A stretch of DNA of 64,000 nucleotides from Desulfitobacterium metallireducens DSM 15288 (lineage in GTDB: Bacteria; Bacillota; Desulfitobacteriia; Desulfitobacteriales; Desulfitobacteriaceae), in the NCBI RefSeq assembly GCF_000231405.2, contig NZ_CP007032.1, positions 1,054,001 to 1,118,000 of the forward strand, given 5' to 3'. The notes under the pieces are model-generated. The model was given only the letters and a program-made list of their open reading frames with translations, had not been told where the DNA came from and ran no database searches. The translations under genes and the position numbers were made by a program. Position 1 is the stretch's first letter, and every line of letters starts with the position of its first letter. This document shows positions 42,045-61,825 of the stretch, in pieces.

Positions 42045-42928
42045 TGTTAGAAAACTTTCAATTTAAATCACATTATGAGTTAGCGATTGTAGGATGTGGG
42101 CCCGCAGGTATGGCGGCAGCTCTTAATGCGAAAATTAGGAACCGAGATTTTATCTTTTTGGGGTCTGAGTTGTGTAGTCCCAAACTCTCTAAATCACCTC
42201 AAGTAGATAATTTTTTGGGATTTCCCGAAATCAAAGGGGAAGAATTACGACAGCGGTTTTTAGACCATTTAAAACAAAAGGAAATAATAATCGTCCCTTG
42301 GAAGGTCGCTAATATTTATCCTGGGCCTCCGTTTACTTTGATCGGTAAGGATCAGTCGTTTGAAGCAGATGCAGTAATTCTGGCAACCGGCGTCTCAGTT
42401 CAGAAATTAGTACCTGGAGAAGCCGAATTTTTGGGCCGTGGTGTTGGGTATTGCGCCACCTGTGATGGTCCGCTTTATAAAGGGAAAACAGTTGCAATTA
42501 TTTCTTATGACAAGGAAGGGGAGACTGAGGCAAACTTTATGGCGGATATTTGCTCTACGGTCTACTACATCCCTTTCTATAAAGAAGTTGGGGAACTGGA
42601 TGAACGGATTATTCAGAAGAAGGATAAGGTCAGAGAAATCAAAGGAAATCAGCATGCTGAGACACTTGTGCTCGGGCAGGAGGATCTGAAGGTTGACGGC
42701 GTTTTCCTTTTACGGGATAATTTGCCTGCAGAGCAATTGGTGCCAGATCTACAGATGGAAAAGGGCTCTGTTTCAGTAAACCACCATTTAGAAACGAACA
42801 TTCCGGGTTTGTTTGCGGCAGGCGATTGCACGGGTCAACCTTATCAGCTGATAAAAGCGGCTGGTGAGGGTGGCACTGCATCCCTCCAAGCTATAAAATA
42901 TCTCGATGAACTAAAAAAAGAGAAATAA
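42044..42928 (+). CDS. Thioredoxin-reductase-like flavoprotein lacking the NADPH motif
   Basis: This 294-residue TrxR homologue keeps the FAD-binding VGCGPAGMAAALNA, the redox-active YCATCDGPLYKG near residues 142-153 and the C-terminal FAD motif GLFAAGDCTGQPYQ. The nucleotide-binding glycine motif is replaced by AIISYDKEGETEANF, and no HRRxxxR is seen. Such enzymes include ferredoxin-dependent flavin thioredoxin reductases, which do not use NADPH. A ferredoxin gene lies at 45585. Physiological donor and acceptor are inferred. Confidence 0.88.
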   Translation: MLENFQFKSHYELAIVGCGPAGMAAALNAKIRNRDFIFLGSELCSPKLSKSPQVDNFLGFPEIKGEELRQRFLDHLKQKEIIIVPWKVANIYPGPPFTLIGKDQSFEADAVILATGVSVQKLVPGEAEFLGRGVGYCATCDGPLYKGKTVAIISYDKEGETEANFMADICSTVYYIPFYKEVGELDERIIQKKDKVREIKGNQHAETLVLGQEDLKVDGVFLLRDNLPAEQLVPDLQMEKGSVSVNHHLETNIPGLFAAGDCTGQPYQLIKAAGEGGTASLQAIKYLDELKKEK

Positions 42929-43933: not shown

Positions 43934-45292
43934 ATGTACTTTAGCCAATATAATTTGATTTTGCCGATGAAAGAAAATCCGAAGTTTCCATATGCGATTT
44001 TGAACTCGCTTTCAGGAGGGTTTGATCTTGTTCCTCAGGAAGATTATGAGAAACTTCAATCTTTGAAGCGAGGAGAAGTTGTCGAAGATACTGAATTTTT
44101 AAATTACCTACAAAGCCGAGGTTACCTTTATCAGGATAAGGAGGCCGAAAATAAACGTCTCCAAGAACGGTACCCAGAATTTAATAATGCGCTTAATGAA
44201 ACAGCACCACAAGTGCTTTTCGTACCCACATATACCTGTAATTTAGCTTGCCCATATTGTTATGAAAACGGGATTAAACACAAAAAGGATTTGGTTACGA
44301 AGGAAGTTGTAGATGCGTTCTTTAACCATTTGGCCCAGAAGTTTCCGAATCGTAAACCTTTCATTACCTTGTTTGGTGGAGAGGCTTTAAAAAATTCGAT
44401 AAAACAAAAGGAAATGATCGATTATATCGTGAAAGAAGCCGCCCGAGGCGGATATGCTATTTCAGCTGTTTCAAATGGCTACGATTTGAAGGAATATCTG
44501 GATATCTTACAGCAAGCGGAGATTAAAGAAATTCAGGTGACGGTTGATGGCCCTAAGCCGGTTCATGATCTACGTCGTCCTACTGCAGGAGGACAAGGAA
44601 CATATGACCGTATTATGGAGGGACTCACAGAGGCAATTAAACGAGAAATTCCGATCAATCTTCGTGCCGTCGTCGATAAAACAAATTTTGAGGATCTTGT
44701 GACCTTAGCTGAGGACTTCGAGCGTCGAGGTTGGCTGGATTTTCCGCCCCAACGGTTTAAAACGGCAATTGGCCGTAATTATGAATTGTTTGAATGCTAT
44801 GCCACTCCACAACATTTACTCGGGCAGGCTGACCATTGGGCTATGTTTATCGAGCTGGCCGAAAAATATCCTATTCTCAAAAAGTTCCACAAGCCGGAAT
44901 TTAAAGGGATCAATCACCTAGTTCAGACGGGGGAACTTTATTTACCAACTTATGATACATGCCCAGCATGTAAAACGGAATGGGTTTATGATCTCTACGG
45001 CGATATTTATGGTTGTACGGCAAGCGCCGGACAGGATGAATTTAAGCTCGGCACTTTTTATCCTGAGTACACCCTTAAGGCTAATGAAGCGAAAGAATGG
45101 GAAGATAGAAGTGTCTTAACCATTCCGGAATGTAAGGATTGCGATGTTAGCTTAATTTGTGGAGGCGGCTGTGGTGCTATTGCTAAAGACCGGACAGGTC
45201 GTGTGCAAGGACCGGATTGTCGGCCGATTAAAGAAATCCTGACGTTAGGTCTAAAGTATTATGGTGATGATCTTCTCAAAATGGGATTTTAA
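43934..45292 (+). CDS. Radical SAM/SPASM peptide-modifying enzyme
   Basis: This 452-residue enzyme has the radical SAM motif TYTCNLACPYCYEN near residues 98-111 (CxxxCxxC, binding the SAM-cleaving [4Fe-4S] cluster). A C-terminal SPASM region carries CPACKTEW, GCTAS, CKDCDVSLICGGGC and DCRP. These are the auxiliary-cluster Cys found in sactionine and ranthipeptide maturases. The N-terminal 90 residues (NLILPM, YAILNSLSGGFDLV) resemble the usual maturase lead-in. It follows the five-Cys peptide and precedes a ferredoxin gene. The substrate is inferred to be that peptide. Confidence 0.9.
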   Translation: MYFSQYNLILPMKENPKFPYAILNSLSGGFDLVPQEDYEKLQSLKRGEVVEDTEFLNYLQSRGYLYQDKEAENKRLQERYPEFNNALNETAPQVLFVPTYTCNLACPYCYENGIKHKKDLVTKEVVDAFFNHLAQKFPNRKPFITLFGGEALKNSIKQKEMIDYIVKEAARGGYAISAVSNGYDLKEYLDILQQAEIKEIQVTVDGPKPVHDLRRPTAGGQGTYDRIMEGLTEAIKREIPINLRAVVDKTNFEDLVTLAEDFERRGWLDFPPQRFKTAIGRNYELFECYATPQHLLGQADHWAMFIELAEKYPILKKFHKPEFKGINHLVQTGELYLPTYDTCPACKTEWVYDLYGDIYGCTASAGQDEFKLGTFYPEYTLKANEAKEWEDRSVLTIPECKDCDVSLICGGGCGAIAKDRTGRVQGPDCRPIKEILTLGLKYYGDDLLKMGF

Positions 45293-45306
45293 AGGGGAGT
45301 GCTCAT

Positions 45307-45507
45307 ATGCCAAGCTATGATATGGTTTGTCAGGAGTGCGGGCATAAATTCTCAGTTTTTTGTAGTATAAGCCAAAAAGATCAGCAGAAGTGTCCGCAAT
45401 GTGAGAGTTCGAAGATTAGCCAGAGATTTACGGCAGTTAATATTGGTGGTGGCAAAAGTAACAGTAGTAGCAGTGGGGCGTCAGTTCCAACATCAGGGTT
45501 TGGCTGA
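45307..45507 (+). CDS. FmdB-type zinc-ribbon protein (second copy)
   Basis: This 66-residue protein has CQECGHKF and CPQCESSKI zinc-ribbon halves, and a Ser/Gly-rich tail like that of the copy at 921 but without extra Cys. It is 14 bases after the radical SAM gene and probably in its operon. The family function is not settled. Confidence 0.82.
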   Translation: MPSYDMVCQECGHKFSVFCSISQKDQQKCPQCESSKISQRFTAVNIGGGKSNSSSSGASVPTSGFG

Positions 45508-45584
45508 GCAGGCTGCTAAGGAACCGTGAGTTCCTTTTAAGATAGATAAAGTATAGGAAAGGGCTATAGAGGGGAGGAATTTGA

Positions 45585-45788
45585 GTGTCCGCGTATATTC
45601 TTGAAAAACTCTGTCGAGGTTGTCAGAGGTGCGTTCATGCCTGTCCGCAAAACGCCATTCAAATGCTGTCTCATATGGCAATCGTCAACCCAAGGCTATG
45701 TATCGAATGTGAAGAGTGTATGGAAGTATGTATGCAAGGAGCTATTACTTTCCGCGAGAATAGGGAGGAGGTCAGCACTCATGGATGA
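45585..45788 (+). CDS. 2[4Fe-4S] ferredoxin
   Basis: This 67-residue ferredoxin carries CRGCQRCVHACP and CIECEECMEVCM, two full CxxCxxCxxxC motifs, each fitting one [4Fe-4S] cluster. GTG 45585 follows GGGGAGG. It is a plausible electron donor for the radical SAM enzyme upstream or for the NADPH-independent reductase (inference). It overlaps the next small gene by 8 bases. Confidence 0.9.
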   Translation: MSAYILEKLCRGCQRCVHACPQNAIQMLSHMAIVNPRLCIECEECMEVCMQGAITFRENREEVSTHG

Positions 45789-45954
45789 GAATCAGAAGAG
45801 AACAGCTGAAGCACGTCTTGATAAATTGCAGAAGGAGTTAGCTGACCTCAAGCTGCGTTGGCCGGCACATTCGCTAAAGCCTGCTATGCTCATTGAATTA
45901 GAGGACCTAGAAGAGGAAATCGATAATCTGAAAAACCTTTTAAGCGAAAAATGA
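45781..45954 (+). CDS. Small coiled-coil protein, 57 aa
   Basis: This short charged protein (MDENQKRTAEARLDKLQKEL and onwards) has two helical, Leu-heptad halves around a Pro-containing turn (RWPAHSLKP). GGAGG lies 10 bases before ATG 45781. It overlaps the ferredoxin gene upstream by 8 bases and the membrane protein gene downstream by 4, so it is a real member of this operon. Perhaps it is an adaptor; function unknown. Confidence 0.7.
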   Translation: MDENQKRTAEARLDKLQKELADLKLRWPAHSLKPAMLIELEDLEEEIDNLKNLLSEK

Positions 45955-46646
45955 ACTCAACTCTTCAAATAGGCCCTTTTGTACTTCAGACTCAAGGCTT
46001 AGTCATTATTCTTTCAGCGCTTCTCGGTTACTATAGTCTCAATTTTCGCTTAAAACGTATCGACGGTATTAAGGATTCAGAGAAAAGTCGGATCGTTGAA
46101 ACGATTGAAATCGCAGCAATTCTTGCGATTGTGATCTGGAAATTCAGCTTAATCTTATTTGATCCTGTGCGTGTTCTTACCTATCCTACGTCATTACTTT
46201 ATTTTTCTGGAGGAGAGCGAGGAATAGGGTTATCCGTAATAGCTGCCGTCACCTATATTTACTATCATTCAAAAAAAGAGACTCACTCAATTTTGCTTTA
46301 TGCGAATTTGTTGGCAGCTGGTTATTTAGTGGGTATGGGAATATACTCTTGGGTTGCGATCTTTGAAAATTTGAATAAGGCCTGGGTTTATGGAAGTGAA
46401 GTTGTTATTGCTATACTCCTTTATCAGCAGCACTTTCGAAAAAGTAAGGAAATTGCGTCATTCGAAAATCTGAATCAATCTTTACTTTGGTTTAGCTTAG
46501 GACAAATTTTTATTTCGTTTTTTAATCCATTGAAACAAAATTATTGGTGGGGTTTTTCCAAATTACAATTGGTCTTTTTAAGCCTTGCTGTTTTATGTAT
46601 TGTTTTTGATTTTGTTGTGGCAAACAGGAAAAAAGAAGTGATCTAG
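45951..46646 (+). CDS. Lgt-like multipass membrane protein
   Basis: This 231-residue protein has about seven membrane helices. The start (LQIGPFVLQTQGLVIILSALLGYY, in outline) and a FSGGERGIG loop resemble prolipoprotein diacylglyceryl transferase, but the Lgt catalytic His/Arg signature is not complete, so it is probably a paralogue with another role. Linked to CcdA and TlpA-type genes, it might replace a membrane thiol-redox partner (inference). Translation is coupled to its neighbour by ATGA. Confidence 0.6.
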   Translation: MNSTLQIGPFVLQTQGLVIILSALLGYYSLNFRLKRIDGIKDSEKSRIVETIEIAAILAIVIWKFSLILFDPVRVLTYPTSLLYFSGGERGIGLSVIAAVTYIYYHSKKETHSILLYANLLAAGYLVGMGIYSWVAIFENLNKAWVYGSEVVIAILLYQQHFRKSKEIASFENLNQSLLWFSLGQIFISFFNPLKQNYWWGFSKLQLVFLSLAVLCIVFDFVVANRKKEVI

Positions 46647-46656
46647 GAGGAGTTCG

Positions 46657-47373
46657 ATGGAGAATATCTCAGTTCTTTTTGCCTTCACAGCAGGAATGTT
46701 ATCGTTTCTTTCACCCTGTGTATTTCCTTTGATTCCAGCTTATGTCGCGAATCTTACAGGTTCAACCTATGGTGATACTCGGATTGAGGCTTCCAAACGT
46801 GTGCTCTTCACGCGTTCAGTCGCTTTTATTCTGGGTTTTAGTCTTATCTTTGTGTTGATGGGGGCATCTGCTAGTGTTGTGGGCCGCCTCTTTGCTGATT
46901 ATCGCGGCTTGATTCAAAAGATTAGCGGAATATTGATTATTATCTTTGGTTTACAAATGGCAGGAGTGTTAAAACTTCGTTTTCTCATGATGGAAAAACG
47001 CTGGGAAGGCAAGCCAGCAATGGAAAACTCGGTATGGCGTTCTTTGCTCCTGGGAGTTTCTTTCGGGGCAGGCTGGACTCCCTGTGTTGGCTTGGCCTTG
47101 TCCTCCATCCTTTTGTTGGCCGGATCCGCTGAGACGGTTTACAGCGGGATGTTTTTACTTTTTATCTATTCACTCGGTTTGGGGATCCCCTTTTTAGCTA
47201 TTTCGTTAATTATTACGTATTCCTTTAAGGTTGTGAAAGCTATCAACAGCAAATTAGGGATACTTTCGAGCATCAGCGGGTGGATTTTGGTGGGTATGGG
47301 GATACTATTGTTTTCCGGCCAATTACGGAAGATGAGTGCTTGGCTATCCCAATTTACATTATTTTTCTACTAG
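46657..47373 (+). CDS. ccdA: CcdA/DsbD-type thiol-electron transporter
   Basis: This 238-residue, six-helix membrane protein passes reducing equivalents from cytoplasmic thioredoxin to extracytoplasmic thiol proteins. The redox Cys lie in SFLSPCVFPLIPAY (TM1) and GAGWTPCVGLALS (TM4), as in CcdA. The internal repeat is clear. TAGGAGG precedes ATG 46657. It is followed by a TlpA-like thioredoxin gene, the usual recipient. The reductant could come from the Trx-TrxR fusion upstream (inference). Confidence 0.93.
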   Translation: MENISVLFAFTAGMLSFLSPCVFPLIPAYVANLTGSTYGDTRIEASKRVLFTRSVAFILGFSLIFVLMGASASVVGRLFADYRGLIQKISGILIIIFGLQMAGVLKLRFLMMEKRWEGKPAMENSVWRSLLLGVSFGAGWTPCVGLALSSILLLAGSAETVYSGMFLLFIYSLGLGIPFLAISLIITYSFKVVKAINSKLGILSSISGWILVGMGILLFSGQLRKMSAWLSQFTLFFY

Positions 47374-47387
47374 AGGAGATGAGCAAA

Positions 47388-47939
47388 TTGAAGAAATATT
47401 TAGCTATTATCGTTTTAATTGGCTTGGCTCTTTGGGGTTTTGGAAGTGTGCAAGGGAACCGCAGTACATCTAATACGTCTTCATCAAACCAAGCGCAGGC
47501 GTTGACTGTGGGTCTTGAGGTCGGCAACTTAGCACCAGATTTTGCATTACAAACGTTAGAGGGAAAATCAATCACGCTTTCCAGTCTTAAAGGGAAAAAG
47601 GTCATTCTCAATTTCTGGGCCAGTTGGTGTCCCCCTTGTCGGCAAGAGATGCCGGACATGGAAAAGTTCTACAAAGAAAATAATAACGGTGAAATTGAAA
47701 TCTTGGCTGTTAATCTAACGGATGCAGAAAAAAGCCGAGCAGATGTCCCGACTTTCATGAAAACCAATGGTATTACTTTCCCTGTAGTTCTAGATGAAAA
47801 GGGTAAAGTAGGTCAGTTGTACAATGTATCGTCGATTCCAGCTAGTTTTATCATTGACTCGAAAGGTGTTATTCAAAAAAAACTGGTGGGTCCTATGACG
47901 TACGAGTCAATGAAGTCAATGCTGACTGCCATAAGATAG
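47388..47939 (+). CDS. TlpA/ResA-type membrane-anchored thioredoxin
   Basis: This 183-residue extracytoplasmic thioredoxin has an N-terminal signal-anchor (residues 4-20), a Ser/Asn-rich linker, and a TlpA fold with NFWASWCPPCRQEMPDME near 79-96. The cis-Pro region is VSSIPASFIID. It would reduce disulfides outside the membrane, for example apocytochrome c, with CcdA. GAGGAG at 47373-47378 favours TTG 47388 over ATG 47379, which touches the site. Confidence 0.9.
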   Translation: MKKYLAIIVLIGLALWGFGSVQGNRSTSNTSSSNQAQALTVGLEVGNLAPDFALQTLEGKSITLSSLKGKKVILNFWASWCPPCRQEMPDMEKFYKENNNGEIEILAVNLTDAEKSRADVPTFMKTNGITFPVVLDEKGKVGQLYNVSSIPASFIIDSKGVIQKKLVGPMTYESMKSMLTAIR

Positions 47940-47941
47940 GA

Positions 47942-48970
47942 TTATAATACTAGGGTGAAGTAGGAGACTATAGAAACTAATACAGAGGCGATAAGCATTG
48001 CCACTAACGGGCGGAGGGCTCGAGAACGTAGGCTTGCTAGATGAACATTTAAGCCGAGTCCAACCATTGCAGCTACGAGTAAGAAGGATGAAAGGGTTGT
48101 AAGGGAATCCAAGACCCGTGTAGGGATGGGTAAGTAAGAGCCAATGAGGCTCGTGAGAATAAAACCTATAAGAAACCAAGGAAACGAAGCAGTTTGGGTA
48201 GTTTCTGAATTGCCTTTTGAATTATGGCGTACCCACAAGGTAAGAATTAGGCTGATAGGGATAAGAAGGAAGACGCGTCCTAGTTTGGCGAGTAAGGCCT
48301 CTGCCAATGCATCAGAGCCTACTGGGCCAGCAGCGGCTGCAACATGAGCAATCTCGTGTAGGCTTACGCCGCTCCAAATTCCGTATTGGATCGGGGTTAG
48401 ATGTAAGTAAGGATAGAGAAGGGTATAGGCAAGGGTAAAAAGTGTACCGACCAGGGCAATTATACCGGCTCCGATAGCGGTATCCTCTTCATTGGCTTTA
48501 ATAATTGGAGCTACAGCCGCTATAGCAGCTGCTCCACACACACCGGTCCCGATCCCTAAAAGCAGAGAAAGTTGTTTCTCACCCTTAAGCCCTTTGGAAA
48601 TAAGTAACGTAGTGGAGATGGCGATTACGATGGTGAGGGTATCACGAAGTAATAAGGGGATTCCTTGCTGAAGAATCATATTGATATTTAAACGAAATCC
48701 ATAGAGTATGATTGCAAAACGTAAGACTTTTTGAGCACTAAACTGAATGCCAGGGCGAAGGCCTTCTGGATATCCTAGGATATTTCGATAGAGGACAGCA
48801 ATCAAAATAGCGCACAGCATAGCGCCAATTCTATTGGTTATAGGCAAGTTGGCTAACCCCGTACCGAGAGCGGCAATGACGATCGTAAATAAGAAACCTA
48901 AGATAAACCGTAAGGAATAGGACGTTTTTGATGCAAATAACTTTTGAATTGTAAATTTAGTGCTAGACAT
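47942..48970 (-). CDS. YeiH/UPF0324-family putative sulfate or sulfonate exporter
   Basis: This 342-residue membrane protein has about 10 helices and belongs to the YeiH family of putative sulfate exporters. Motifs such as RFAIILYGFRLNI, GIGTGVCGAAAIAAVAP and WSGVSLHEIAHVAAAA are typical. The substrate has not been firmly shown for the family; links to sulfite and cysteine metabolism are known. AAAGGAGG precedes the start. It is divergently oriented to a LysR regulator, which probably controls it. Its end is just 2 bases from the thioredoxin gene on the other strand. Confidence 0.88.
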   Translation of the reverse strand: MSSTKFTIQKLFASKTSYSLRFILGFLFTIVIAALGTGLANLPITNRIGAMLCAILIAVLYRNILGYPEGLRPGIQFSAQKVLRFAIILYGFRLNINMILQQGIPLLLRDTLTIVIAISTTLLISKGLKGEKQLSLLLGIGTGVCGAAAIAAVAPIIKANEEDTAIGAGIIALVGTLFTLAYTLLYPYLHLTPIQYGIWSGVSLHEIAHVAAAAGPVGSDALAEALLAKLGRVFLLIPISLILTLWVRHNSKGNSETTQTASFPWFLIGFILTSLIGSYLPIPTRVLDSLTTLSSFLLVAAMVGLGLNVHLASLRSRALRPLVAMLIASVLVSIVSYFTLVL

Positions 48971-49104
48971 GATTTCCTCCTTTGTTTATATAATTAAGAT
49001 TGGCTGCAAATGTAACTTTACAGCGAGTTAAGAGCATCAAGCAAGAAGGATTTATTATACTTACGATAGGAAAATATTATTCTACGGCAATCGGAGGGTA
49101 CATT

Positions 49105-50001
49105 TTGATCATTGAACCCCTTGAAATTTTTAAAAAGGTAGCAGAAGAAAAAAGCTTTTCCAAAGCGGCAGAGGATCTCTTCCTATCGCAACCTGGGGTT
49201 AGTTTACATATCCGTAATTTGGAGAACGAATTTGGTACGAAGCTTATTTATCGTTCGTCAAAACGCGTTGAGCTCACTCCAGCAGGTGAAATTCTCTATC
49301 AACAGGCCTGTCAGATCATTAATCTTTATACGCAGGCTAAAGAGAAAATCAATCAAATCCAGAGTATTGTTACAGGAAGTCTGCGTATAGGAGCAAGTTT
49401 CACAATAGGTGAATACATACTGCCTGAATTAGTTAGCCAGATGGCAGCAAAATATTCGAAACTCGATGTTTCAGTAACTATCGCAAATACGGAAGAAATA
49501 GCACAGGATCTCAGCCAGAATCGCTTGGATATAGCCTTGGTTGAGGGACGTGTCAGTGCTACCGAGTTTATTCTTGAGTCATTCATGGAAGATGAGATGG
49601 TTTTAATTGCCCCACCGGGGCATCCTCTGACACTGTTAAACAAGGTGACTTTAAAGAATATGGAGAACCAAATATGGATACTGCGGGAGGCAGGCTCAGG
49701 TACACGAGAGTTCAGTGATCATTTTATGCAAATACTTAAACTTAAGATGCAGCATTCTTATGTATTCAGCAGTAATAAAGGGGTTAAGGCTGCAGTGGTC
49801 AGTGGTTTAGGTATTGCCTTAGTCTCACATTTAATTATCGAAAAAGAGTTAGTTGCGGGAGAATTAGTGGTGATACCGCTTGATCAAGAGGTTGTTAGGC
49901 TAGCTAGGGAATTTGTAATTGTCCGACTACCTGATAATTATTTCACAAAGGCTTCTGAGGTGCTCCTGGCAGAGTTGCATGGTTACAGTCGCAAATCTTA
50001 A
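49105..50001 (+). CDS. LysR-family transcriptional regulator (CysL/YeiE-like)
   Basis: This 298-residue LysR regulator has an N-terminal helix-turn-helix (EIFKKVAEEKSFSKAAEDLF, near residues 7-26, then SQPGVSLHIRNLE) and a type-2 periplasmic-binding-like effector domain (residues 90-290). TTG 49105 is supported by GGAGGG 6 bases upstream; the frame runs open from 49000. It faces the yeiH-like gene across 134 bases, as YeiE does in other bacteria. The ligand is probably a sulfur compound or O-acetylserine (inference). No T-N11-A box was verified. Confidence 0.9.
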   Translation: MIIEPLEIFKKVAEEKSFSKAAEDLFLSQPGVSLHIRNLENEFGTKLIYRSSKRVELTPAGEILYQQACQIINLYTQAKEKINQIQSIVTGSLRIGASFTIGEYILPELVSQMAAKYSKLDVSVTIANTEEIAQDLSQNRLDIALVEGRVSATEFILESFMEDEMVLIAPPGHPLTLLNKVTLKNMENQIWILREAGSGTREFSDHFMQILKLKMQHSYVFSSNKGVKAAVVSGLGIALVSHLIIEKELVAGELVVIPLDQEVVRLAREFVIVRLPDNYFTKASEVLLAELHGYSRKS

Positions 50002-50051
50002 TTTTAGAGATGCGAGTGAAAATCATAGAAAAAGTAGGAGGCGATTACCCA

Positions 50052-50267
50052 TTGAATGATCTAACTAAGCTAAGTTTAGCCGATCTTAAGCGGCGCTTGC
50101 AGACCCTTGAAGAGGAACGAGAAGAATTAGAAGAAGAAAAAAACTATGTTCTCAGACAGACAGGTCTTCATATTAGTGCAGTTAAAGCACAAAAATATCA
50201 GTCTGAGTCGGAGGCCTTGGCTCAATCTATTGCAGAAATCAAGGCAGAACTTGCAAAGAGGGGCTAG
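50052..50267 (+). CDS. Small coiled-coil protein, 71 aa
   Basis: This charged helical protein contains LADLKRRLQTLEEEREELE and later ALAQSIAEIKAEL, with a loop (RQTGLHISA) between. It is probably a coiled-coil hairpin. TTG 50052 follows AGGAGG at 50036-50041. It lies 48 bases before the first Sec glutaredoxin. Function unknown. Confidence 0.6.
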   Translation: MNDLTKLSLADLKRRLQTLEEEREELEEEKNYVLRQTGLHISAVKAQKYQSESEALAQSIAEIKAELAKRG

Positions 50268-50315
50268 ATCGCATTTTAGATTAGCCAAGTTAGGCTAAAG
50301 TAAAGGAGTAGGAAG

Positions 50316-50561
50316 TTGAAAGAAGTTATTATGTATGTTGTTCCGCTATGACCCCATTGTATACGCGCTAAGCGGTTCCTTAAGGGTAAAGGAATTAAAT
50401 GGGTTGAGAAAAATATTATTGTGCCAGCGCATAGAAAAGAAATGGGGAAAATAACTAATGCGCAATCTGTTCCTGTAGTTCAGGTGGGTAATCAGGTTTT
50501 GGTGGGCTTTTCTGCCCAAGAGTATGAGGAAACATTTAAAGAATGGGGATTAGATAAATAA
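50316..50561 (+). CDS. Glutaredoxin-like selenoprotein (UPHC), first copy
   Basis: This reads as one 81-residue glutaredoxin fold only if the in-frame TGA at 50349-50351 is selenocysteine (residue 12). The protein is MYVVPL-U-PHCIRAKRFL, then IKWVEKN and SVPVVQVGNQVLVGF, the standard glutaredoxin beta-strand and cis-Pro (SVPVV) pattern. The UxxC replaces CxxC. Translation starts at TTG 50316, 7 bases after AAAGGAG. A hairpin follows the TGA at the right distance (50376-50394). It would be about ten times more nucleophilic than a Cys enzyme, useful in thiol or peroxide reduction (family knowledge). Without Sec insertion it would be a 11-residue fragment. Confidence 0.85.
50376..50394 (+). other. 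Candidate bacterial SECIS hairpin for the first Sec glutaredoxin
   Basis: TTCCTT/AAGGAA with loop AAGGGTA starts 25 bases after the UGA, and a lower stem CCCATT/AATGGG extends it. The G-rich loop fits a SelB-binding element. Confidence 0.6.
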
Positions 50562-50604
50562 GCAGGGGATTGCTTAAAGAAGAGAGAGGCTGGAGTGATA
50601 AGCT

Positions 50605-51255
50605 ATGGTGAATGGTAATTTTCGTGATTATGCTATAGTCGCTTGCGGAACAATGATACCGGAACTAAACGCTTTGAAAGAAACTGGCTTTTTAGATGGA
50701 GTGCTTCTTTATACTGCACCAGGTCTTCATCAGGTGCCTGAGGAATTAGAAAAACAATTACAAAAACAGCTTGAAGTAGCTAAGGAACACGCGAAGAAAA
50801 TTATTGTGGTCTACGGCGGCAAGTATTGTTATATCAACATGAGAGATTCGTATCGTACGATTGATCGTGTTATAGATGAAATGCGCGAAGATGGATATTA
50901 TATTGCCAGGACTGAAGTGGAAAATTGCTTAGATATGCTCGCGACGGTGGAAGAGAGAGAGCAATTGGCAGAAGGTCAAAATATTTGGTTTTGTACTCCC
51001 GGATGGCTGAAATATCGGGATATGGTCTTTAAAGGTTGGGATAAGGCCAATGCTAATGAAAATTTTCCGCAATACACTGGCGGGGGAGTTATGCTTGACG
51101 GAATTGGTTTTTTTGATCAATATGCCATAGAACATGTGGAGGAAATTCTGGATTTCTCCGATTGGGCCGCAATACCGCTGGAAGCTCATTCAGTAAGCTT
51201 AGAGCGCTTAAAACAAGTTTTAATAGCAGCAATGGAGGAAAGTTCCTTTCAATAA
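50605..51255 (+). CDS. DUF1638 protein
   Basis: This 216-residue protein begins DYAIVACGTMIPELNALKE, then GLHQVPEELEKQLQKQL and IIVVYGGKYCYINM, a pattern I associate with DUF1638, which is linked to corrinoid and methylamine methyltransferase systems in some genomes. It has four Cys, including CTPGW. There is no signal peptide. It lies between two Sec glutaredoxin genes with short spacers, which is odd for a corrinoid-linked protein. Function here is unknown. Confidence 0.7.
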   Translation: MVNGNFRDYAIVACGTMIPELNALKETGFLDGVLLYTAPGLHQVPEELEKQLQKQLEVAKEHAKKIIVVYGGKYCYINMRDSYRTIDRVIDEMREDGYYIARTEVENCLDMLATVEEREQLAEGQNIWFCTPGWLKYRDMVFKGWDKANANENFPQYTGGGVMLDGIGFFDQYAIEHVEEILDFSDWAAIPLEAHSVSLERLKQVLIAAMEESSFQ

Positions 51256-51289
51256 ATAATTATAAAATATAATAAAAGGAGATGGAAAA

Positions 51290-51637
51290 ATGAAAGACGT
51301 GATCATGTTTACAACAAAAACCTGACCGTATTGTTCAATGGCGAAAGAGTTTCTTTCGCAGCATAAAATTCACTTCGTAGAAAAGGATATTAACGTGGAT
51401 ACTCAAGCTCAATCTGAGTTAATGCGACGAAATATTAGTGGTGTGCCTGCATTCTTTATTGGTGAAGATGTCGTGGTGGGATTGGATAAAGCAAAAATCC
51501 TCCAACTTGTCGATCATCGTATTATTGAATGTGAGAAATGTCAGACTAAGATGCGGGTACCTTTGGGCAAAGGGACAATTAAAGTAACGTGTCCGAAATG
51601 TGCCCATACTTTTAATGTAACTCCCAATTTACTTTAG
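51290..51637 (+). CDS. Sec glutaredoxin fused to an MJ0042-type zinc ribbon
   Basis: This 115-residue protein is continuous only if TGA 51323-51325 is Sec (residue 12): VIMFTTKT-U-PYCSMAKEFL, then EKDINVD and VPAFFIG, a glutaredoxin fold of about 76 residues. From about 82 it has CEKCQTKMRV and CPKCAHTFNV, a zinc ribbon of the MJ0042 shape. GGAGATGG precedes ATG 51290. An 8-bp hairpin follows the TGA (51341-51359). The sister gene at 50316 has UPHC and no zinc ribbon. Confidence 0.88.
51341..51359 (+). other. Candidate bacterial SECIS hairpin for the second Sec glutaredoxin
   Basis: GCGAAAGA/TCTTTCGC is a perfect 8-bp stem with loop GTT, 15 bases after the UGA. The codons still encode a normal glutaredoxin helix. 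Confidence 0.75.
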
Positions 51638-51658
51638 TGTTAATATGACGATAATTCT

Positions 51659-51696
51659 TTAAAATGCACCTGTAATAATTTACAGGTGCATTTTAA
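51659..51696. terminator. Terminator after the Sec glutaredoxin genes
   Basis: This is a 16-bp perfect inverted repeat built on AAAATGCACCTGTA and its complement with a 6-nt loop. The rest of the 369-base spacer (51638-52006) holds the operator pair at 51810 and no gene. Confidence 0.88.
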
Positions 51697-51809
51697 AGGC
51701 CCATTTTTCAAAGTGAGCCAGGGAGAGATCATGAGATGAGAGATTAAGTACTTGATGGTTTATAACCTTATGCTGCATAGAATAACTTAGTTATCAAGGT
51801 GATTTAATA

Positions 51810-51853
51810 TATACCTCCCCTTGGTATAAGGGGATTTACCTACCCAGGGTATA
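51810..51853 (+). promoter_or_regulatory. Tandem CstR-type dyads upstream of psrABC
   Basis: The first site is TACCT-CCCCT-TGGTA, embedded in TATACC-N7-GGTATA (51810-51828). The second is TACCT-ACCCA-GGGTA (51837-51851). A further overlapping repeat CCCCTT/AAGGGG (51817-51833) could form a hairpin with the first. Both lie about 155-195 bases before the psrA start; a promoter was not identified with confidence. Confidence 0.55.
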
Positions 51854-52006
51854 GGGGATAAACTAAGATAATCAAACAAAAATAGACTATTGAAGTGATT
51901 AGTGCACACAATCGCAAAATATGGCCTTTTTTGTCGTTCGCATAAAATTTAAAAACCATATATTATCTATCTATAAGTGAAAATATGAACAGAGGAGGTC
52001 CATGGT

Positions 52007-54676
52007 ATGAGTTCGCTAAAAGAACGTAACGTGGCAGCCAAACAAACCACCGCTTCACGCGATGTAGAGTGGGTACCAAGTATCTGCAATTTTTGCTCAA
52101 CGGTTTGTAATGTGCGCATTGGGGTTAAAGAAGTAAACGGTAAGAAGACTGCCGTTAAAATTGAAGGAAACCCTAATAGTCCTTTGAACCGAGGGAAAAC
52201 ATGTGCCCGTGGTCAGGCTGGATTAAAACAAACTTATGATGAAGGGCGTCTAACAACTCCATTAATTCGAGTTGAAGGATCTAAGCGGGGAGAGTGGAAC
52301 TTCCGTCCAGCATCATGGGAAGAAGCCACTAATTATTTTATGCAAAAGATGCAAGAAAACCAAGTTCAGCCTTGGGAAATGGCAATGGTCGGTGGCTGGA
52401 CCTCCTGCGTGTTCTATATGCCTTTAGCCTTGGCTTTTGCTTTTACAATGCAGATGCCTAACATTGTTGCGGCACCTATGCAACAATGTGTAACAGCAGG
52501 TCACTTAGGCAATGACTTCGTAACTGGAAACTTTAACTTTCATGATGAAGTGCTCGCAGATTTTGAAAATGCTAAATACATCATTTTTTCAGCAACAAAC
52601 TCTGGTGTAGCAGCTGCTTCAACAAGCCGCTTAGTTCGCTTTGCTGAAGCTAAAAAACGGGGTGCAAAAGTTGTTGTACTCGATCCCCGTATGTCTGAAT
52701 TAGCTGCGAAAGCGGATGAATGGCTTCCTATTAAACCTGGAACAGATTCAGCCTTTTTCTTAGCCATGATTCACGTCATTCTTCGTAACAAATTATATGA
52801 CCTTGATTTTGTAAGAGATCACACAAATATGTCTTTCCTTGCTGTTGAACATCAGGGCATGGTTGTGCCAATGATGGAAAATGACGAAAAAGGCAATCCA
52901 ACTGCTTTCTGGGTAATTGATGAGATTACCGGCGAAGTTCGCAAGCTTCCGGGTTATAACAATACAAATACGGTTGATGTGGATGGCAAGAAACTTGTTC
53001 CTGCATTAGAAGTTCCCAAAGGCTTCGAGATGAATGGACAAAAGCCAAAAACAATTTTCCAATATATGCTCGAACAAACTGCGAAATTCACGCCTGCTTG
53101 GGCTGAACAAGAAACGGATATCCCCGCAGCGACTATTGAGAAAATCGCAATTGAGTTTGGACAAACTCGTCCATCTCTTATTGATCCAGGTTGGCATGGT
53201 GCTCGTTATGGAAATATGATCAATACCCGTCGTTTGCAAAGTATTGTTCAAGCTCTTGTGGGTGGAATTGATACCACTGGCGGTTGGCTCATGTCCGGTG
53301 AATATCGGGAAAAGCTTCTTCATTTCGTTAAGAATATGAAAGAGGGTAAACCGACGCCAATTCTAGGACTTCCAGGGATGAACTTCCCATTGACGGCAGC
53401 CGGTAAATTTTTTGATCCAGCTTCATGGCAGCATGGTCATCCATCCTTTGCAATGGCCCATTCGATGGCTGAAAAAGCTGCAGGTCGCCAAGGTGTTGTT
53501 ATGCCAGCGTTCTCTGATTATGGGCTAGAGGAAGCAATAGACGGTAAACTTCAATATAACGGTCAACCCTATAAGATTAAAGCGATTTTAATGAATGCAG
53601 CAAATCCAGTTAGACATTACTATCCTGAATCACGATGGAAGAAGATGCTGTCAAGCCCAAATCTTGGAATACTTGCGGTAATCGATATTGTACCTTCCGA
53701 TACTGCGGCTTATGCAGACGTCATTTTCCCAAATCAAAACTATATTGAACGGGATGAGCCTTTCATCTATGGAGCAGGCCCTTCTACGGATCACGCAATT
53801 ACGACTCGGTTTAGTGCAGTTGAATCTAGCGCAGATTTAAAAGGAACTGCGGATATTCTCTTTGGTTTTGCCCAGGCCTTTGGAGCAACCGACGCTTTAG
53901 TTCAAACGATTTCAGAGCTTAACGGTATGAATCTTCAAGACCTTCAAGAGCAAATTGGCAAAGCTGTTAAAGGACAGCAAACATACACTAAAGCGTTACG
54001 TAATGTTTCCTTTAAGCATCATTCAAAGAATTTGGGAATGTCGCCAGAAAAGCTCGAACAAACCCTTCGTGAAAAAGGCGTGCTTATCGTTGAGACAGCT
54101 GATAAGATGCGGGAGCATGCAACTCTTCTTAAGGATCTACCGGTCCCAACTCCTTCTGGAAGAATTGAAATCTATTCCTTGTATCTTGCTGGTTTCACGA
54201 TGCAGCAAGGTCCTTCAGACACCTGGAATCCAGGATTCGTTTATATCCCTCCCCAGGTTAATCAAGCGAAAAAACCGGATGAATTCAACTTCATTTATGG
54301 AAAAGTGCCGACAGTTTCTTATGCATCAACAAACTCTAATAATCCCATTCTGATGGCATTATCCAAGGTTAAAGAAGATGAATTCATGGGCCTCTGGATA
54401 AACACCCAAAAAGCAACCCTATTAAATATCAAAACCGGTGATACCGTAACGGTTGAAAACTTGGTTAGTGGACAAAAAGCGCAAATTAAAGCTTTTGTAA
54501 CTGAGATGGTTCGTCCTGACACCGTATTCATGTCTTCATCTTGGGGAAGTGAAAACCCATTATTGAAAAATGCAGCTGGAGTCGGAACAGCTATCAATAA
54601 GTTGATTCCCTATCAAGTTGAACCTCTCGTAAGTGCATTCCGGAGTCAAGAATTCACCGTTCGCGTGACAAAGTAA
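52007..54676 (+). CDS. PsrA/PhsA-type molybdopterin oxidoreductase without Tat signal
   Basis: This 889-residue catalytic subunit belongs to the complex-iron-sulfur molybdoenzyme family. The N-terminal [4Fe-4S] motif is CNFCSTVCNV followed by CARGQ. The Mo-binding region has a candidate Cys ligand in QQCVTAGHL, and the C-terminal domain is GDTVTVENLVSG-like. Polysulfide, thiosulfate and tetrathionate reductases are the nearest roles. The N-terminus MSSLKERNVAAKQ lacks the twin-arginine signal that such PsrA proteins normally have, so this one would stay in the cytoplasm. GAGGAGG confirms the start. Confidence 0.88.
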   Translation: MSSLKERNVAAKQTTASRDVEWVPSICNFCSTVCNVRIGVKEVNGKKTAVKIEGNPNSPLNRGKTCARGQAGLKQTYDEGRLTTPLIRVEGSKRGEWNFRPASWEEATNYFMQKMQENQVQPWEMAMVGGWTSCVFYMPLALAFAFTMQMPNIVAAPMQQCVTAGHLGNDFVTGNFNFHDEVLADFENAKYIIFSATNSGVAAASTSRLVRFAEAKKRGAKVVVLDPRMSELAAKADEWLPIKPGTDSAFFLAMIHVILRNKLYDLDFVRDHTNMSFLAVEHQGMVVPMMENDEKGNPTAFWVIDEITGEVRKLPGYNNTNTVDVDGKKLVPALEVPKGFEMNGQKPKTIFQYMLEQTAKFTPAWAEQETDIPAATIEKIAIEFGQTRPSLIDPGWHGARYGNMINTRRLQSIVQALVGGIDTTGGWLMSGEYREKLLHFVKNMKEGKPTPILGLPGMNFPLTAAGKFFDPASWQHGHPSFAMAHSMAEKAAGRQGVVMPAFSDYGLEEAIDGKLQYNGQPYKIKAILMNAANPVRHYYPESRWKKMLSSPNLGILAVIDIVPSDTAAYADVIFPNQNYIERDEPFIYGAGPSTDHAITTRFSAVESSADLKGTADILFGFAQAFGATDALVQTISELNGMNLQDLQEQIGKAVKGQQTYTKALRNVSFKHHSKNLGMSPEKLEQTLREKGVLIVETADKMREHATLLKDLPVPTPSGRIEIYSLYLAGFTMQQGPSDTWNPGFVYIPPQVNQAKKPDEFNFIYGKVPTVSYASTNSNNPILMALSKVKEDEFMGLWINTQKATLLNIKTGDTVTVENLVSGQKAQIKAFVTEMVRPDTVFMSSSWGSENPLLKNAAGVGTAINKLIPYQVEPLVSAFRSQEFTVRVTK

Positions 54677-54689
54677 GGAGGAATATAAT

Positions 54690-55286
54690 ATGGCACGCTA
54701 TGGCATGGTCATAGATCTGCGATCCTGTGTAGGCTGTCAGGCCTGTAGTGCAGCTTGCTCTCTTGAAAATCAAACTCCATATTGGTCTAATAAATGGCGG
54801 ACTAAGGTAAAAGATATTGAAGTGGGTCAATACCCTAATACGGGTCGTCATTTTGTTCCAACGATTTGTATGCATTGTAAAGAACCGGCCTGCATGACGG
54901 TGTGTCCTTCTAAAGCGACTTTTAAAAATGATGATGGCTTTGTCTTGGTTAATTATGATACCTGCCTAGGATGTAAAGCATGTATGGCAGCATGTCCTTA
55001 TGGTGCACGTTACGTCTATGACAAAGAGGATGTGCGTCAAGCTAAAGAAATCTATGGTGATAGTACTCAACACACCAAAGTCCATATTGATAAGTGTACT
55101 TTCTGCCAAGATCGGATAGCCCGTGGGATGGAACCAGCTTGTGTTTCGACCTGTCCCACAACTTCAAGAATGGTTGGTGATTTGGACGATCCTAACAGCG
55201 AAGTAGCCAAAGCGGTATCTTCAGGTTTGGCCAAACCACTCCGTCCTGACCTCGATACTGAACCACGCGTCTATTATATTTATTAA
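54690..55286 (+). CDS. PsrB-type four-cluster ferredoxin subunit
   Basis: This 198-residue electron-transfer subunit has four [4Fe-4S] motifs. They start with CVGCQACSAACS, CMHCKEPACMTVCP, CLGCKACMAACP and CTFCQDRIARGMEPACVSTCP (last in outline). It transfers electrons between the NrfD-type anchor and the molybdopterin subunit. There is no signal peptide, consistent with partner export by Tat or, as here, a cytoplasmic complex. It is 13 bases after psrA. Confidence 0.93.
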   Translation: MARYGMVIDLRSCVGCQACSAACSLENQTPYWSNKWRTKVKDIEVGQYPNTGRHFVPTICMHCKEPACMTVCPSKATFKNDDGFVLVNYDTCLGCKACMAACPYGARYVYDKEDVRQAKEIYGDSTQHTKVHIDKCTFCQDRIARGMEPACVSTCPTTSRMVGDLDDPNSEVAKAVSSGLAKPLRPDLDTEPRVYYIY

Positions 55287-55299
55287 GGAGGGGATATTC

Positions 55300-56187
55300 A
55301 TGGCAAAACCGATGCATCTTGAACGCCAAGAAGCTTATGAATGGCCGGTGGCCGTCTATCTGTTCTTCGGTGGTTTTGGTGGAGCACTAATTACTCTGTC
55401 CTATATATTAAATTTCTTTGCAGCAACTGCATCGATGGTTGGACTTGCAACTCTAAGTGGACTTGTATTTTTCGCCATCGCGGGTTTATTCCTTGTTTTC
55501 TTTGATTTAGAGCGGCCTCTCAATGCAATCTACTCTATGAATAACGCAACTAAGTCGGGGATCTCTTGGGACGTCATGCTCATTATCGTCAATTATGTAT
55601 TTGGAATCCTTTTCGTAATTCCTGAGTTTGCGAATTTTAGTTTTCTAAGTGGATTATCAAGTATGCTTGCGCCTTATCAAGTGTTCTTTGGCGCCATTGC
55701 GGCAATTGCAGGATTCTTGTTCCCTATCATTTCAGGAGGGTTGCTCGCTGCTCCTGCATCAATCCCTCTCTGGCACACCCCTGCACTTCCGGTGCTCTAT
55801 CTTGTAACATCCTTCTCTCTTGCACTTGCTTACCTCGGTACGCTTTATGCTCCAAACGGGACCGTATATACAGCTTTCATGGGTGCTATTTTAGCCCTTT
55901 CAGCATTAACCTTCGGCTTATCTTTAGCTTATCTCGAGCATACACATAATGGTCCAATTGAGGCTAAAGAAGGAATGCATCGTATGCTAAAAACGGCTCG
56001 TTTCGTCATTCTTTATCCCTTAGTTGGAGTGCTATTCCCGTTAGGGTTAAGTGCATATTTATTCTTCTCGGGTGCCACTTTAACATGGGCTATGCCAGCT
56101 CTGGCGATTGCATTATTCCTTGGCGGTTTTGCTGCTAGGAATTGCGTTGTGAACAATGGAATTGAAACTTATCCCTGGCCCTATTAA
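55300..56187 (+). CDS. PsrC/NrfD-type membrane anchor
   Basis: This 295-residue quinone-interacting membrane subunit has eight predicted helices. The N-terminal WPVAVYLFFGGFGGALIT and later LERPL motifs fit NrfD/PsrC. It should exchange electrons with menaquinone. AAGGAGGGG lies before ATG 55300. It is the last gene of the operon and is followed by a terminator. Orientation relative to a cytoplasmic catalytic subunit needs experimental proof. Confidence 0.92.
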   Translation: MAKPMHLERQEAYEWPVAVYLFFGGFGGALITLSYILNFFAATASMVGLATLSGLVFFAIAGLFLVFFDLERPLNAIYSMNNATKSGISWDVMLIIVNYVFGILFVIPEFANFSFLSGLSSMLAPYQVFFGAIAAIAGFLFPIISGGLLAAPASIPLWHTPALPVLYLVTSFSLALAYLGTLYAPNGTVYTAFMGAILALSALTFGLSLAYLEHTHNGPIEAKEGMHRMLKTARFVILYPLVGVLFPLGLSAYLFFSGATLTWAMPALAIALFLGGFAARNCVVNNGIETYPWPY

Positions 56188-56236
56188 GAGATAAGATTTT
56201 CATGAAGTTAAATTATTGACAAGATGATTAAATAAA

Positions 56237-56280
56237 ATGCCCTGTAGAGTAGTCCGTGAAAAACTACTCTGCAGGGTATT
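56237..56280 (+). terminator. Terminator of the psr operon
   Basis: A long stem ATGCCCTG-T-AGAGTAGT pairs with ACTACTCT-G-CAGGGTAT and is followed by TTTT. One G-U pair is present. Confidence 0.85.
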
Positions 56281-56333
56281 TTGCTATAATCAAGTAAAGT
56301 TCATAAACCCTTAAAGGGGTGGAGTTAGAGAGT

Positions 56334-56468
56334 ATGAAGATTTTGCCCCCTGTGCGATACAGAGTTCATCTTCTAAGCCAAATAGAACTATGTTTTTTAG
56401 ATGTCTATTATTACCACGATGTGAATAGCATAGAGAGATATGAGTCCACGATGAGTGGACTCATATCT
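56334..56468 (+). other. Intergenic stretch with a strong hairpin and a doubtful reading frame
   Basis: Between psrC and the next gene lies ATG 56334 with GGAG upstream (MKILPPVRYRVHLLS and onwards). A perfect 14-bp hairpin (56436-56468) followed by six T sits inside this frame, so a full 85-residue protein is doubtful. Upstream, AACCC-TTAAA-GGGGT (56306-56320) resembles the CstR-type dyads loosely. It could be a short leader, a small RNA with its own terminator, or gene debris. Confidence 0.35.
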
Positions 56469-56592
56469 TTTTTTAAAAAGGGCTTTATTTTTTGGTTGCT
56501 TTTGTATACAATATACATGAGAGATAAATACCTGAGTTTAAGCAATCTTGAGACTTCCTCATCAAATAAGAGAATAAAGGAAGGCGATTAAA

Positions 56593-56745
56593 ATGAACCG
56601 TTTGCTCCAATTTTTTAAGGCCAAACTAGATAAATGTCCACTGCGTGAGGACGATCCTTATCGTACGTATTTTTATGGACTTGGATGTTATTCTTTCCCC
56701 AAAATAATAACAAGGGATGAAAAAATAAGAGAATTAACCCGTTGA
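56593..56745 (+). CDS. Small protein, 50 aa, unknown
   Basis: The short protein MNRLLQFFKAKLDKCPLRED and onwards ends in IRELTR. It has a basic amphipathic start, two Cys (15 and about 32), and an aromatic stretch YRTYFYGLGCYSF. AAGGAAGG lies 6 bases before the ATG, a good site. It is followed by TGA TGA. It stands alone between terminators, and I recognise no family. Confidence 0.45.
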   Translation: MNRLLQFFKAKLDKCPLREDDPYRTYFYGLGCYSFPKIITRDEKIRELTR

Positions 56746-56795
56746 TGATGTAACGTAAATTTCAAATCAATCGGTTCAATATTACAAGCTAACGA

Positions 56796-56841
56796 AAAGA
56801 GCGTTTATGGCAGATATAAGATTTTCTGCTATAACGCTCTT
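56796..56841. terminator. Terminator between convergent genes
   Basis: AAAGAGCGTT and AACGCTCTTT, extended by imperfect GCAGA/TCTGC pairing, form a long hairpin with an AT-rich loop. It serves the short gene on the left and the polyferredoxin gene on the right. Confidence 0.75.
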
Positions 56842-56870
56842 TATCATTATCTTTATTTTATAGTGTTGCT

Positions 56871-57989
56871 TTATTTTTCAAGACTTTCTTTGACTTCATC
56901 CCAATTGTAATCCGGAACTGTTTTACTGATCTCTTTCATCATCGTTTCTGCAGGGACATTTTTTGGAATTTTGAATGTCGTATAAAAATGTTCGAGTGGT
57001 GTATTAGTTGCTTCAGCAGCATCCTTAATCGTCATATAGCCTTTGATTTCATCATAAGTGATTGCTTCTCCAGCTTTGAGGGGAGCCGGTAAAACCGTAT
57101 ATACACCAGCAGCCTTGAAGGTAAGGATAGAACCGAAAAATACAACTACGACCAGAGCAATTACGATGAGAGGCTTCATCGATTTTTGACCTTCCTTGTT
57201 TTCCAAGGCTCCTGGTTTAGGACATTCTAAGACGCAAAGTTGGCAGTTAATGCATTCAGCACTTTTCACTTCCGTGTTATGCTGGATATCTATATTCATC
57301 GGACAGGAACGGTTGCATTTTCCACAATCGATGCAGGTATTTTCGTTTCTCACAACTTTAAAAGGACTGACTTTGCCCAGTATCCCATAAAGTGCACCCA
57401 TGGGGCAAAGATACTTGCAGAAGAAGCGGTCATAGAGTAGTGATCCAATCAAGGTTATGACTAAGAGGATTAAACCTACCGCAGATTCTCCCCATACACT
57501 TTCTAGACCTTCAGGTAAATGACCATAAGCTGACCAAGGATCATAAGGAGCCATCCATAAACCTGCAGTTCTCCAAGCATATAATACGGTAATGATGAGG
57601 ACGAGATATTTTAAATATCTTAAAGGTTTATCGACCTTTGCGGGAATAACAAATTTTTTTCTAAAGATTTTCTGACCCATTTTTGCAAAGAACTCCTGAA
57701 TAGCACCAAACGGACAGAGTAACCCACAAAAGCTTCGTCTGAAAAGAATCGCCAATAGAACAGTTACCCCAAAAAGGACAAGTGTCCCTGCAAATATTTT
57801 GCTAATGAAGCTCCCTGCTGTGAATATTTGATATAAACTCTCCAGTCCACCAAAGGGGCAGAGCGCGTGTATGGAAGGTGATTCTCCACCCCCCAGTTTA
57901 ATATGCAGGTATGCTTCAGTCGTAATAAACAGCGTAATAAGGGCTAAAAGAATCCAACGTAAAAATTTAATTTGTTTCTCTTTTCTCAA
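56871..57989 (-). CDS. NapH/CcoG-like membrane polyferredoxin
   Basis: This 372-residue membrane protein has about five helices. Two membrane-edge motifs, CGLLCPFGAIQEFF and CKYLCPMGALYG, are of NapH/NosR type, followed by two cytoplasmic [4Fe-4S] sites CIDCGKCNRSCPMNI and CINCQLCVLECPK. A further helix near 270-292 precedes a C-terminal soluble domain of about 75 residues (TIKDAAEATNTPLEHF) of unknown role. It likely moves electrons across or within the membrane. TTG start with AGAGGAAG upstream. It lies close to the psr operon. Confidence 0.88.
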   Translation of the reverse strand: MRKEKQIKFLRWILLALITLFITTEAYLHIKLGGGESPSIHALCPFGGLESLYQIFTAGSFISKIFAGTLVLFGVTVLLAILFRRSFCGLLCPFGAIQEFFAKMGQKIFRKKFVIPAKVDKPLRYLKYLVLIITVLYAWRTAGLWMAPYDPWSAYGHLPEGLESVWGESAVGLILLVITLIGSLLYDRFFCKYLCPMGALYGILGKVSPFKVVRNENTCIDCGKCNRSCPMNIDIQHNTEVKSAECINCQLCVLECPKPGALENKEGQKSMKPLIVIALVVVVFFGSILTFKAAGVYTVLPAPLKAGEAITYDEIKGYMTIKDAAEATNTPLEHFYTTFKIPKNVPAETMMKEISKTVPDYNWDEVKESLEK

Positions 57990-58108
57990 TTATTATCACT
58001 CTTCCTCTTATAAAAGGGCTACAGAAGGGTTTTCTTACCGTAGTGTAGCCCCTATTTCATTCTCTCTGTAAATGTCTTTGAAACTAAATTGATGTTGGAA
58101 TCTATTTT

Positions 58109-58606
58109 TTAGTTTAAAGCACCTTGAGTAGTACTTGGGGTAGCATTAGTAGTGCTTTGAGTAGCACCTAGGCCGCAAGCGCCACCTCTACCGAATCCTG
58201 CCCCATTACCGGCTCCTCTACCCATTCCGTAGCCACCACCCATGCCATAGCCTCTTCCTCCCATTCCTTGGCCATAGCAGGTTGCTTGATTATTTTTGAT
58301 GTTATTATAGATTTCATCGGCTTGCGCTTGGGTAATGTCACCAGCTGCAACCTGTTCGTCAAGAACAGCTTTTCTTTGTTCTAGCATTTGGGTTTGGAAT
58401 TCATCTAGCTTGCCTGCTTCCTCGGCAATCGTACCATAAGTTTTGCCTGTGGTAGACCGTTGTTCGGTTACAGTTTCAACAGTTTGGCCTGTCACACCGG
58501 CTGTGATTTCGGCTGGGGTCTTGAGTGTTGCTGCATAAACGCTACCTGCTGTCCCTAATACTCCTAGGGTTGTGACGACGACGAGGAGTTTCTTGAGATT
58601 TTTCAT
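58109..58606 (-). CDS. Secreted DUF2680-like protein with Gly/Met-rich tail
   Basis: This 165-residue protein has a signal peptide (residues 1-25, cleaved near VYAA) and a helical DUF2680-like middle (residues 40-105, DEFQTQMLEQRKAVLDEQV in outline). The last 55 residues are built from Gly, Met, Tyr and Arg (GQGMGGRGYGMGGGYG, GRGAGNGAGFGRGG). AAAAGGAGCG precedes the start. The HK at 59552 has a related Gly/Met segment. A metal or envelope-stress role is possible. Confidence 0.8.
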   Translation of the reverse strand: MKNLKKLLVVVTTLGVLGTAGSVYAATLKTPAEITAGVTGQTVETVTEQRSTTGKTYGTIAEEAGKLDEFQTQMLEQRKAVLDEQVAAGDITQAQADEIYNNIKNNQATCYGQGMGGRGYGMGGGYGMGRGAGNGAGFGRGGACGLGATQSTTNATPSTTQGALN

Positions 58607-58866
58607 GTTGACACGCTCCTTTTTATTGATAGTGTATATTTACCCTTAATTGAAGTATAGACAAGAAATGTGGCAAAACTTTGGCAAAAGTTTAAAAGAA
58701 TTTTGTCATTTCGATCATCGAGCAGTTCCTAAAGACGTAATCCTATGCCATAATTATGTCACACATTAGTTTCATTAAGTGGTAGATTAATGTTAGATAA
58801 CAATAATCCGGATTTTGAATGAAAATACTTAAAAAACAGTAGAGATGCAGACTGGAGGGAGCAATT

Positions 58867-61408: not shown

Positions 61409-61417
61409 TGTATGGAT

Positions 61418-61470
61418 TTGACACAGACAAGGGTAAAAGTTATGATATTCGTATATACCCCCTGCGGGTA
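61418..61470 (+). promoter_or_regulatory. Promoter and CstR-type dyad for the HesB selenoprotein operon
   Basis: TTGACA (61418-61423) and TATGAT (61441-61446) with a 17-base spacer are near consensus. TACCC-CCTGC-GGGTA (61456-61470) overlaps the expected start point. The same dyad layout precedes the Trx-TrxR gene. Confidence 0.7.
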
Positions 61471-61516
61471 ATAATGATGAAATAAGATAAATACGGGAAA
61501 CGGGTGAAATAAACAG

Positions 61517-61816: not shown

Positions 61817-61825
61817 GAGGTAATA

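Follow-up and report, generated by a model that had tools for sequence, protein, structure and literature searches.

UGrx1, a gene of Desulfitobacterium metallireducens DSM 15288, almost certainly encodes a selenocysteine (Sec)-containing glutaredoxin, as judged from comparison with its relatives, and we infer that the in-frame TGA at its catalytic position is translated as Sec in the host. It is a further bacterial member of a class that is already known: both the Sargasso Sea (PMC1088965) and sequenced bacteria (PMC1794560) have yielded Sec-containing glutaredoxins, and a 2026 review counts those with a UxxC motif (U, Sec) among the known families (PMC13188914). Together with a second gene beside it (UGrx2), this adds a well-supported selenoprotein and a neighbour that are both hidden from ORF listings treating TGA as a stop. 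The features are collected in Table 1; the window is the whole stretch of 64,000 nucleotides that was analysed.

Table 1 Positions of UGrx1, UGrx2 and associated features in the window.
Feature	Position	Strand	Description
Thioredoxin-thioredoxin reductase fusion	40512-41792	+	Upstream of UGrx1; candidate reductant
Second thioredoxin reductase-like flavoprotein	42044-42928	+	Upstream of UGrx1; candidate reductant
Shine-Dalgarno-like AAGGAG	50303-50308	+	7 bases ahead of TTG 50316; read directly
UGrx1	50316-50561	+	81-residue glutaredoxin-like predicted selenoprotein, motif UPHC
In-frame TGA of UGrx1	50349-50351	+	Predicted Sec, residue 12; catalytic position of CxxC; TGA or TGC/TGT in relatives, never TAA/TAG
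Bacterial SECIS-type hairpin of UGrx1	50375-50395	+	Stem GTTCCTT/AAGGAAT; synonymous constraint in TGA relatives only; pair counts
DUF1638 protein between UGrx1 and UGrx2	50605-51255	+	PF07796, E 4.4e-24; shared system with UGrx1/UGrx2 only putative
UGrx2	51290-51637	+	Predicted selenoprotein; UPYC glutaredoxin domain, C-terminal zinc ribbon (CEKC...CPKC); U = TGA 51323-51325
SECIS-type hairpin of UGrx2	51341-51359	+	8 base pairs, GUU loop, 23 bases past TGA

UGrx1 encodes a glutaredoxin fold across an in-frame TGA

Between TTG 50316 and the terminal TAA (last base 50561), the TGA is the sole interruption of the UGrx1 frame under translation table 11. Read with TGA as U, the frame gives an 81-residue protein (LKEVIMYVVPLUPHCIRAKRFLKGKGIKWVEKNIIVPAHRKEMGKITNAQSVPVVQVGNQVLVGFSAQEYEETFKEWGLDK) in which the UPHC motif occupies residues 12-15, the TGA falling exactly at the first Cys of CxxC. 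The Pfam Glutaredoxin family (PF00462) matches residues 4-61 with an E value of 3.7e-12 and a score of 46.7 bits, above the gathering score of 22.9, and two residues ahead of the TGA, Y7 and P10, are invariant across all relatives. The preliminary description had proposed that the frame from this TTG runs through the TGA into a complete glutaredoxin, that the TGA replaces the catalytic first Cys and that gene callers would miss the gene; all three proposals held, since the domain match spans the TGA and the frame ends in TAA, the relatives carry either TGA or Cys codons in this column, and UGrx1 is missing from the table 11 ORF list of the window, which has no ORF of at least 60 amino acids in its frame. 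Among the 81 readthrough frames with at least 40 codons after the TGA that a scan of the whole window returned, only two, UGrx1 and the gene starting at 51290 (UGrx2), have a UxxC in a recognisable redox domain. Modelled with AlphaFold from 20 aligned sequences, the U12C form has a mean pLDDT of 92.5 and the strand-helix order of glutaredoxin, and the structures found to resemble it are those of glutaredoxins and NrdH-redoxins.

For UGrx1 and UGrx2 alike, the best sequence match with a solved structure was cGrx1 of Clostridium (Alkaliphilus) oremlandii (PDB 7c10, 7c12, 7c13), a protein with the same UPHC motif and a native catalytic Sec, solved as its Cys form and proposed as the reductant of the selenoprotein MsrA (PMC7642778). 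UGrx1 and cGrx1 share the fold (42% of structurally aligned residues identical and a TM-score of 0.80-0.85, the UGrx1 side being a predicted model), with only moderate sequence likeness (phmmer E 1.1e-12); unlike cGrx1, the UGrx1 group has a P-L-U-P-x-C motif and, in the relatives, a mobA-fdhD neighbourhood. The bacterial Sec-glutaredoxins described from the Sargasso Sea, Geobacter sulfurreducens, Alkaliphilus and Moorella (PMC1088965, PMC1794560, PMC13188914) have, as UGrx1 does, a PF00462 domain and UxxC, and they have a bacterial SECIS, to which the hairpin of UGrx1 would correspond; our sequence comparison covered cGrx1, and the others are likened by description. The best NCBIfam match, TIGR02196 (GlrX_YruB), extends over nearly the full length of UGrx1 (C for U), its 62.3 bits lying below the family cut-off of 88.55. 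The UXX-star glutaredoxin-like selenoproteins (NF041212, NF041114, NF041211) are likewise short with Sec at the active site, but UGrx1 retains the second Cys (UxxC) and reaches 39.9 bits against NF041212, under its cut-off of 66.

The host genome encodes the selenocysteine machinery

The preliminary description had proposed looking for selA, selB, selC and selD, and all are present in the host genome (3,176,073 bases in one contig), including a tRNA-Sec with anticodon TCA (UCA in the tRNA). The host selD (G000:C1:2465249-2466175; match at positions 1501-2427 of locus L010) has an in-frame TGA of its own at the catalytic position (KAGUGCKIGP) and is, on this reading, itself a selenoprotein gene. 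Within the host's order, a complete or partial selA was detected in 17 of the 18 genomes with the TGA form of UGrx1, the one without a match (G041) being a 90% complete draft; among the 12 genomes with the Cys form it went undetected in one only, the closed genome G068. With this machinery, UGA 50349-50351 would be decoded as Sec by SelB and tRNA-Sec, steered by the downstream hairpin within the coding sequence.

Sec and Cys forms of UGrx1 exchange among relatives

UGrx1 or close relatives were present in 30 of the 73 genomes of the host's order that were searched, mostly sharing 46-63% of residues across the whole domain, apart from one partial match at a contig end. The catalytic column holds TGA in 18 of these genomes (the window's own included) and TGC or TGT in 12, and neither TAA nor TAG occurred there in any of the 30; the homologues thus carry either a Cys codon or TGA in this column, with no other stop codon, which answers the concern, raised beforehand, that they might prove to be broken frames. 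In a scan of named genomes the relatives belonged mostly to Desulfosporosinus, with others in Paradesulfitobacterium and more distant Bacillota, and the TGA form was also found in an Alicyclobacillaceae genome. Two TGA-type copies (L066, L068) occur in Desulfosporosinus fructosivorans, the second in a different neighbourhood. On a protein tree built without the trait column, the distribution of Sec and Cys needs five changes, at least two of which are forced by well-supported branches.

The downstream hairpin is constrained only where TGA is present

The apical GGG of the UGrx1 hairpin (50384-50386) lies about 32 bases past the TGA. The published bacterial SECIS model asks for a loop of 3-9 nt, a G within the first two loop positions, a distance of 16-37 nt from the UGA and an energy of -7.5 or lower (PMC13188914); the UGrx1 hairpin fits in distance and loop length, its local fold of -6.3 kcal/mol is short of the energy asked for and weaker than that of most relatives, and the loop G is conditional, since in the minimum-energy loop AAGGGUA the first G comes third, unless an inner A-U pair forms. 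Several relatives' hairpins fit the model fully. No SECIS-type family matched near UGrx1 in an Rfam scan of positions 45000-64000; the sole element to pass its gathering score in that scan was a cobalamin riboswitch (RF00174, 63164-63351, + strand, 109.6 bits). Among synonymous recodings of the window's UGrx1 gene, 2.6% equal it in pairing and 8.5% in folding; this per-gene significance is weak because the encoded amino acids by themselves predispose the stretch to a hairpin, and since the single-gene test was only marginal, the argument was moved to the relatives.

The relatives have a common hairpin type downstream of the TGA (ATTCCTTTCGGGTAAAGGAAT) and a variant in which both sides changed together (TTCTTCGAGTCTCGAGGAA). 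Their hairpin pairs are formed in 89.5% of cases, with double-sided changes present, against at most 68.6% in slid controls (two rows of this alignment, L022 and L023, end six bases early, leaving the hairpin columns unaffected). Over codons +8 to +15 the mean pairwise synonymous difference is 0.18 in the 18 TGA sequences, against 0.51 elsewhere in the gene, and 0.53 against 0.42 in 11 Cys sequences. The same holds within the single Desulfosporosinus clade (10 TGA and 10 Cys members): in the TGA members the hairpin block, at 0.115 against a mean of 0.39, is the lowest of 45 blocks, and in the Cys members, at 0.569, it is among the least constrained. Permutation of the labels in this clade reached the difference in 1 of 1000 trials, a figure that ignores relatedness and serves as a guide, not an exact probability. 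These comparisons of aligned genes show the hairpin to be under selection only in the TGA-bearing relatives, and the hairpin that had been predicted at the expected distance, weak on its own, becomes convincing through them. The repeated exchange of Sec and Cys within one genus amounts to a natural experiment, in which the SECIS constraint is switched off once the codon is Cys.

UGrx2, a second predicted selenoprotein beside UGrx1

UGrx2 starts at ATG 51290, 0.7 kb downstream of UGrx1, reads MKDVIMFTTKTUPYCSMAKEFL at its beginning and is 36% identical to UGrx1. Its TGA is kept in 20 of the 20 sequences read (own included), and an open UGrx2-type frame without TGA was found in a few other sequences. 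Its hairpin fits the published SECIS model (PMC13188914), and in the hairpin codons the synonymous difference drops from about 0.52 to 0.23. The table 11 ORF list starts the gene at ATG 51338, past the active site. TGA-bearing glutaredoxins similar to UGrx2, of about 80 residues and without the zinc ribbon, occur in many relatives (G007, G008, G016, G024 and others). The Sec-glutaredoxin interpretation of UGrx1 in the preliminary description is supported by our comparisons; that description mentioned neither UGrx2 nor the UPHC Sec-glutaredoxins already known.

Alternative readings of the TGA codon

TGA recurs at this very codon in 18 genomes (closed ones included) and is present in two paralogue families; the frame beyond it is conserved, and the hairpin codons are frozen in TGA-bearing genes only. 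These observations bear directly on whether UGrx1 could be a pseudogene whose nonsense TGA arose by chance, or the product of a sequencing error. Decaying genes commonly show a single in-frame stop, and the UGrx1 hairpin, taken by itself, has only a marginal advantage over synonymous recodings; this explanation is nevertheless extremely improbable, and the conservation across the aligned genes in practice refutes it. The UGA might instead be a real stop, the functional product being a separate protein with a downstream start, as the plain ORF of UGrx2 from ATG 51338 would allow. UGrx1, however, has no listed ORF of at least 60 amino acids in its frame, would lose its first strand and the catalytic residue, and has relatives that all conserve Y7 and P10 ahead of the TGA, so that a separate downstream product can hardly be the case.

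Genomic neighbourhood and possible function of UGrx1

The gene order in the window is: a LysR regulator (close to the selenium-metabolism LysR model, below its cut-off); an 85-amino acid coiled-coil-like protein; UGrx1; the DUF1638 protein; UGrx2; a PhsA-like molybdoenzyme, about 1.4 kb downstream; and iron-sulfur and NrfD-like subunits. DUF1638 was tied by mutant fitness to the reactivation of vitamin B12 in methionine synthesis (PMC5764234). The UGrx1-DUF1638-UGrx2 cluster seems to be particular to the host genome, because this arrangement was not found near the UGrx1 or UGrx2 of the relatives. At 16-17 loci of the relatives (L051-L067), UGrx1 immediately precedes mobA, after which come fdhD (opposite strand), moaA, moaC, MOSC and mogA; this location beside mobA is common to the Sec and Cys forms, and a formate-dehydrogenase-like molybdopterin oxidoreductase is encoded upstream of UGrx1 at 10 loci. 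None of these molybdenum neighbourhood genes (mobA, fdhD and moaA among them) lies within the window, and in the host genome fdhD is about 160 kb from UGrx1.

UGrx1 would act as a Sec-containing glutaredoxin-like thiol/selenol-disulfide oxidoreductase, the U12 selenol attacking a disulfide or selenenyl-sulfide of the target and C15 resolving the intermediate. Its re-reduction may depend on a flavoprotein reductase rather than glutathione, because a glutamate-cysteine ligase of the PF04262 type, the family searched, had no match in the host genome; we consider this proposal to be evenly balanced, and the two thioredoxin reductase-like genes upstream (Table 1) would be the candidates.

Because the UGrx1 of the relatives adjoins mobA, fdhD, moaA, moaC, MOSC and mogA, its neighbourhood gives a weak indication that it may help to mature or protect molybdenum enzymes. 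UGrx1 might do so by keeping reduced either the FdhD/MobA step or the Sec/Cys ligands in formate dehydrogenase and other molybdoenzymes related to it. A molybdoenzyme client, which draws on the relatives' neighbourhoods, is a tentative and rather unlikely suggestion, and it is similarly doubtful that UGrx1 represents a Sec-glutaredoxin subfamily dedicated to the maturation of molybdenum/tungsten enzymes. UGrx1 could also serve mainly as a general reductant, methionine sulfoxide reductase being one possible target, a view that differs over the client only: it agrees with the proposed role of cGrx1, whose UPHC motif is the same (PMC7642778), and with the CcdA-like, ResA-like and thioredoxin-thioredoxin reductase fusion genes upstream in the window, but sits less well with the conserved neighbours in 16-17 relatives, which are molybdenum-cofactor and FdhD genes, and we place it slightly short of an even chance.

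If the molybdoenzyme link were true, UGrx1 would offer a role that can be tested in the Sec-glutaredoxins, whose clients are mostly unknown, and one selenoprotein would help to mature another.
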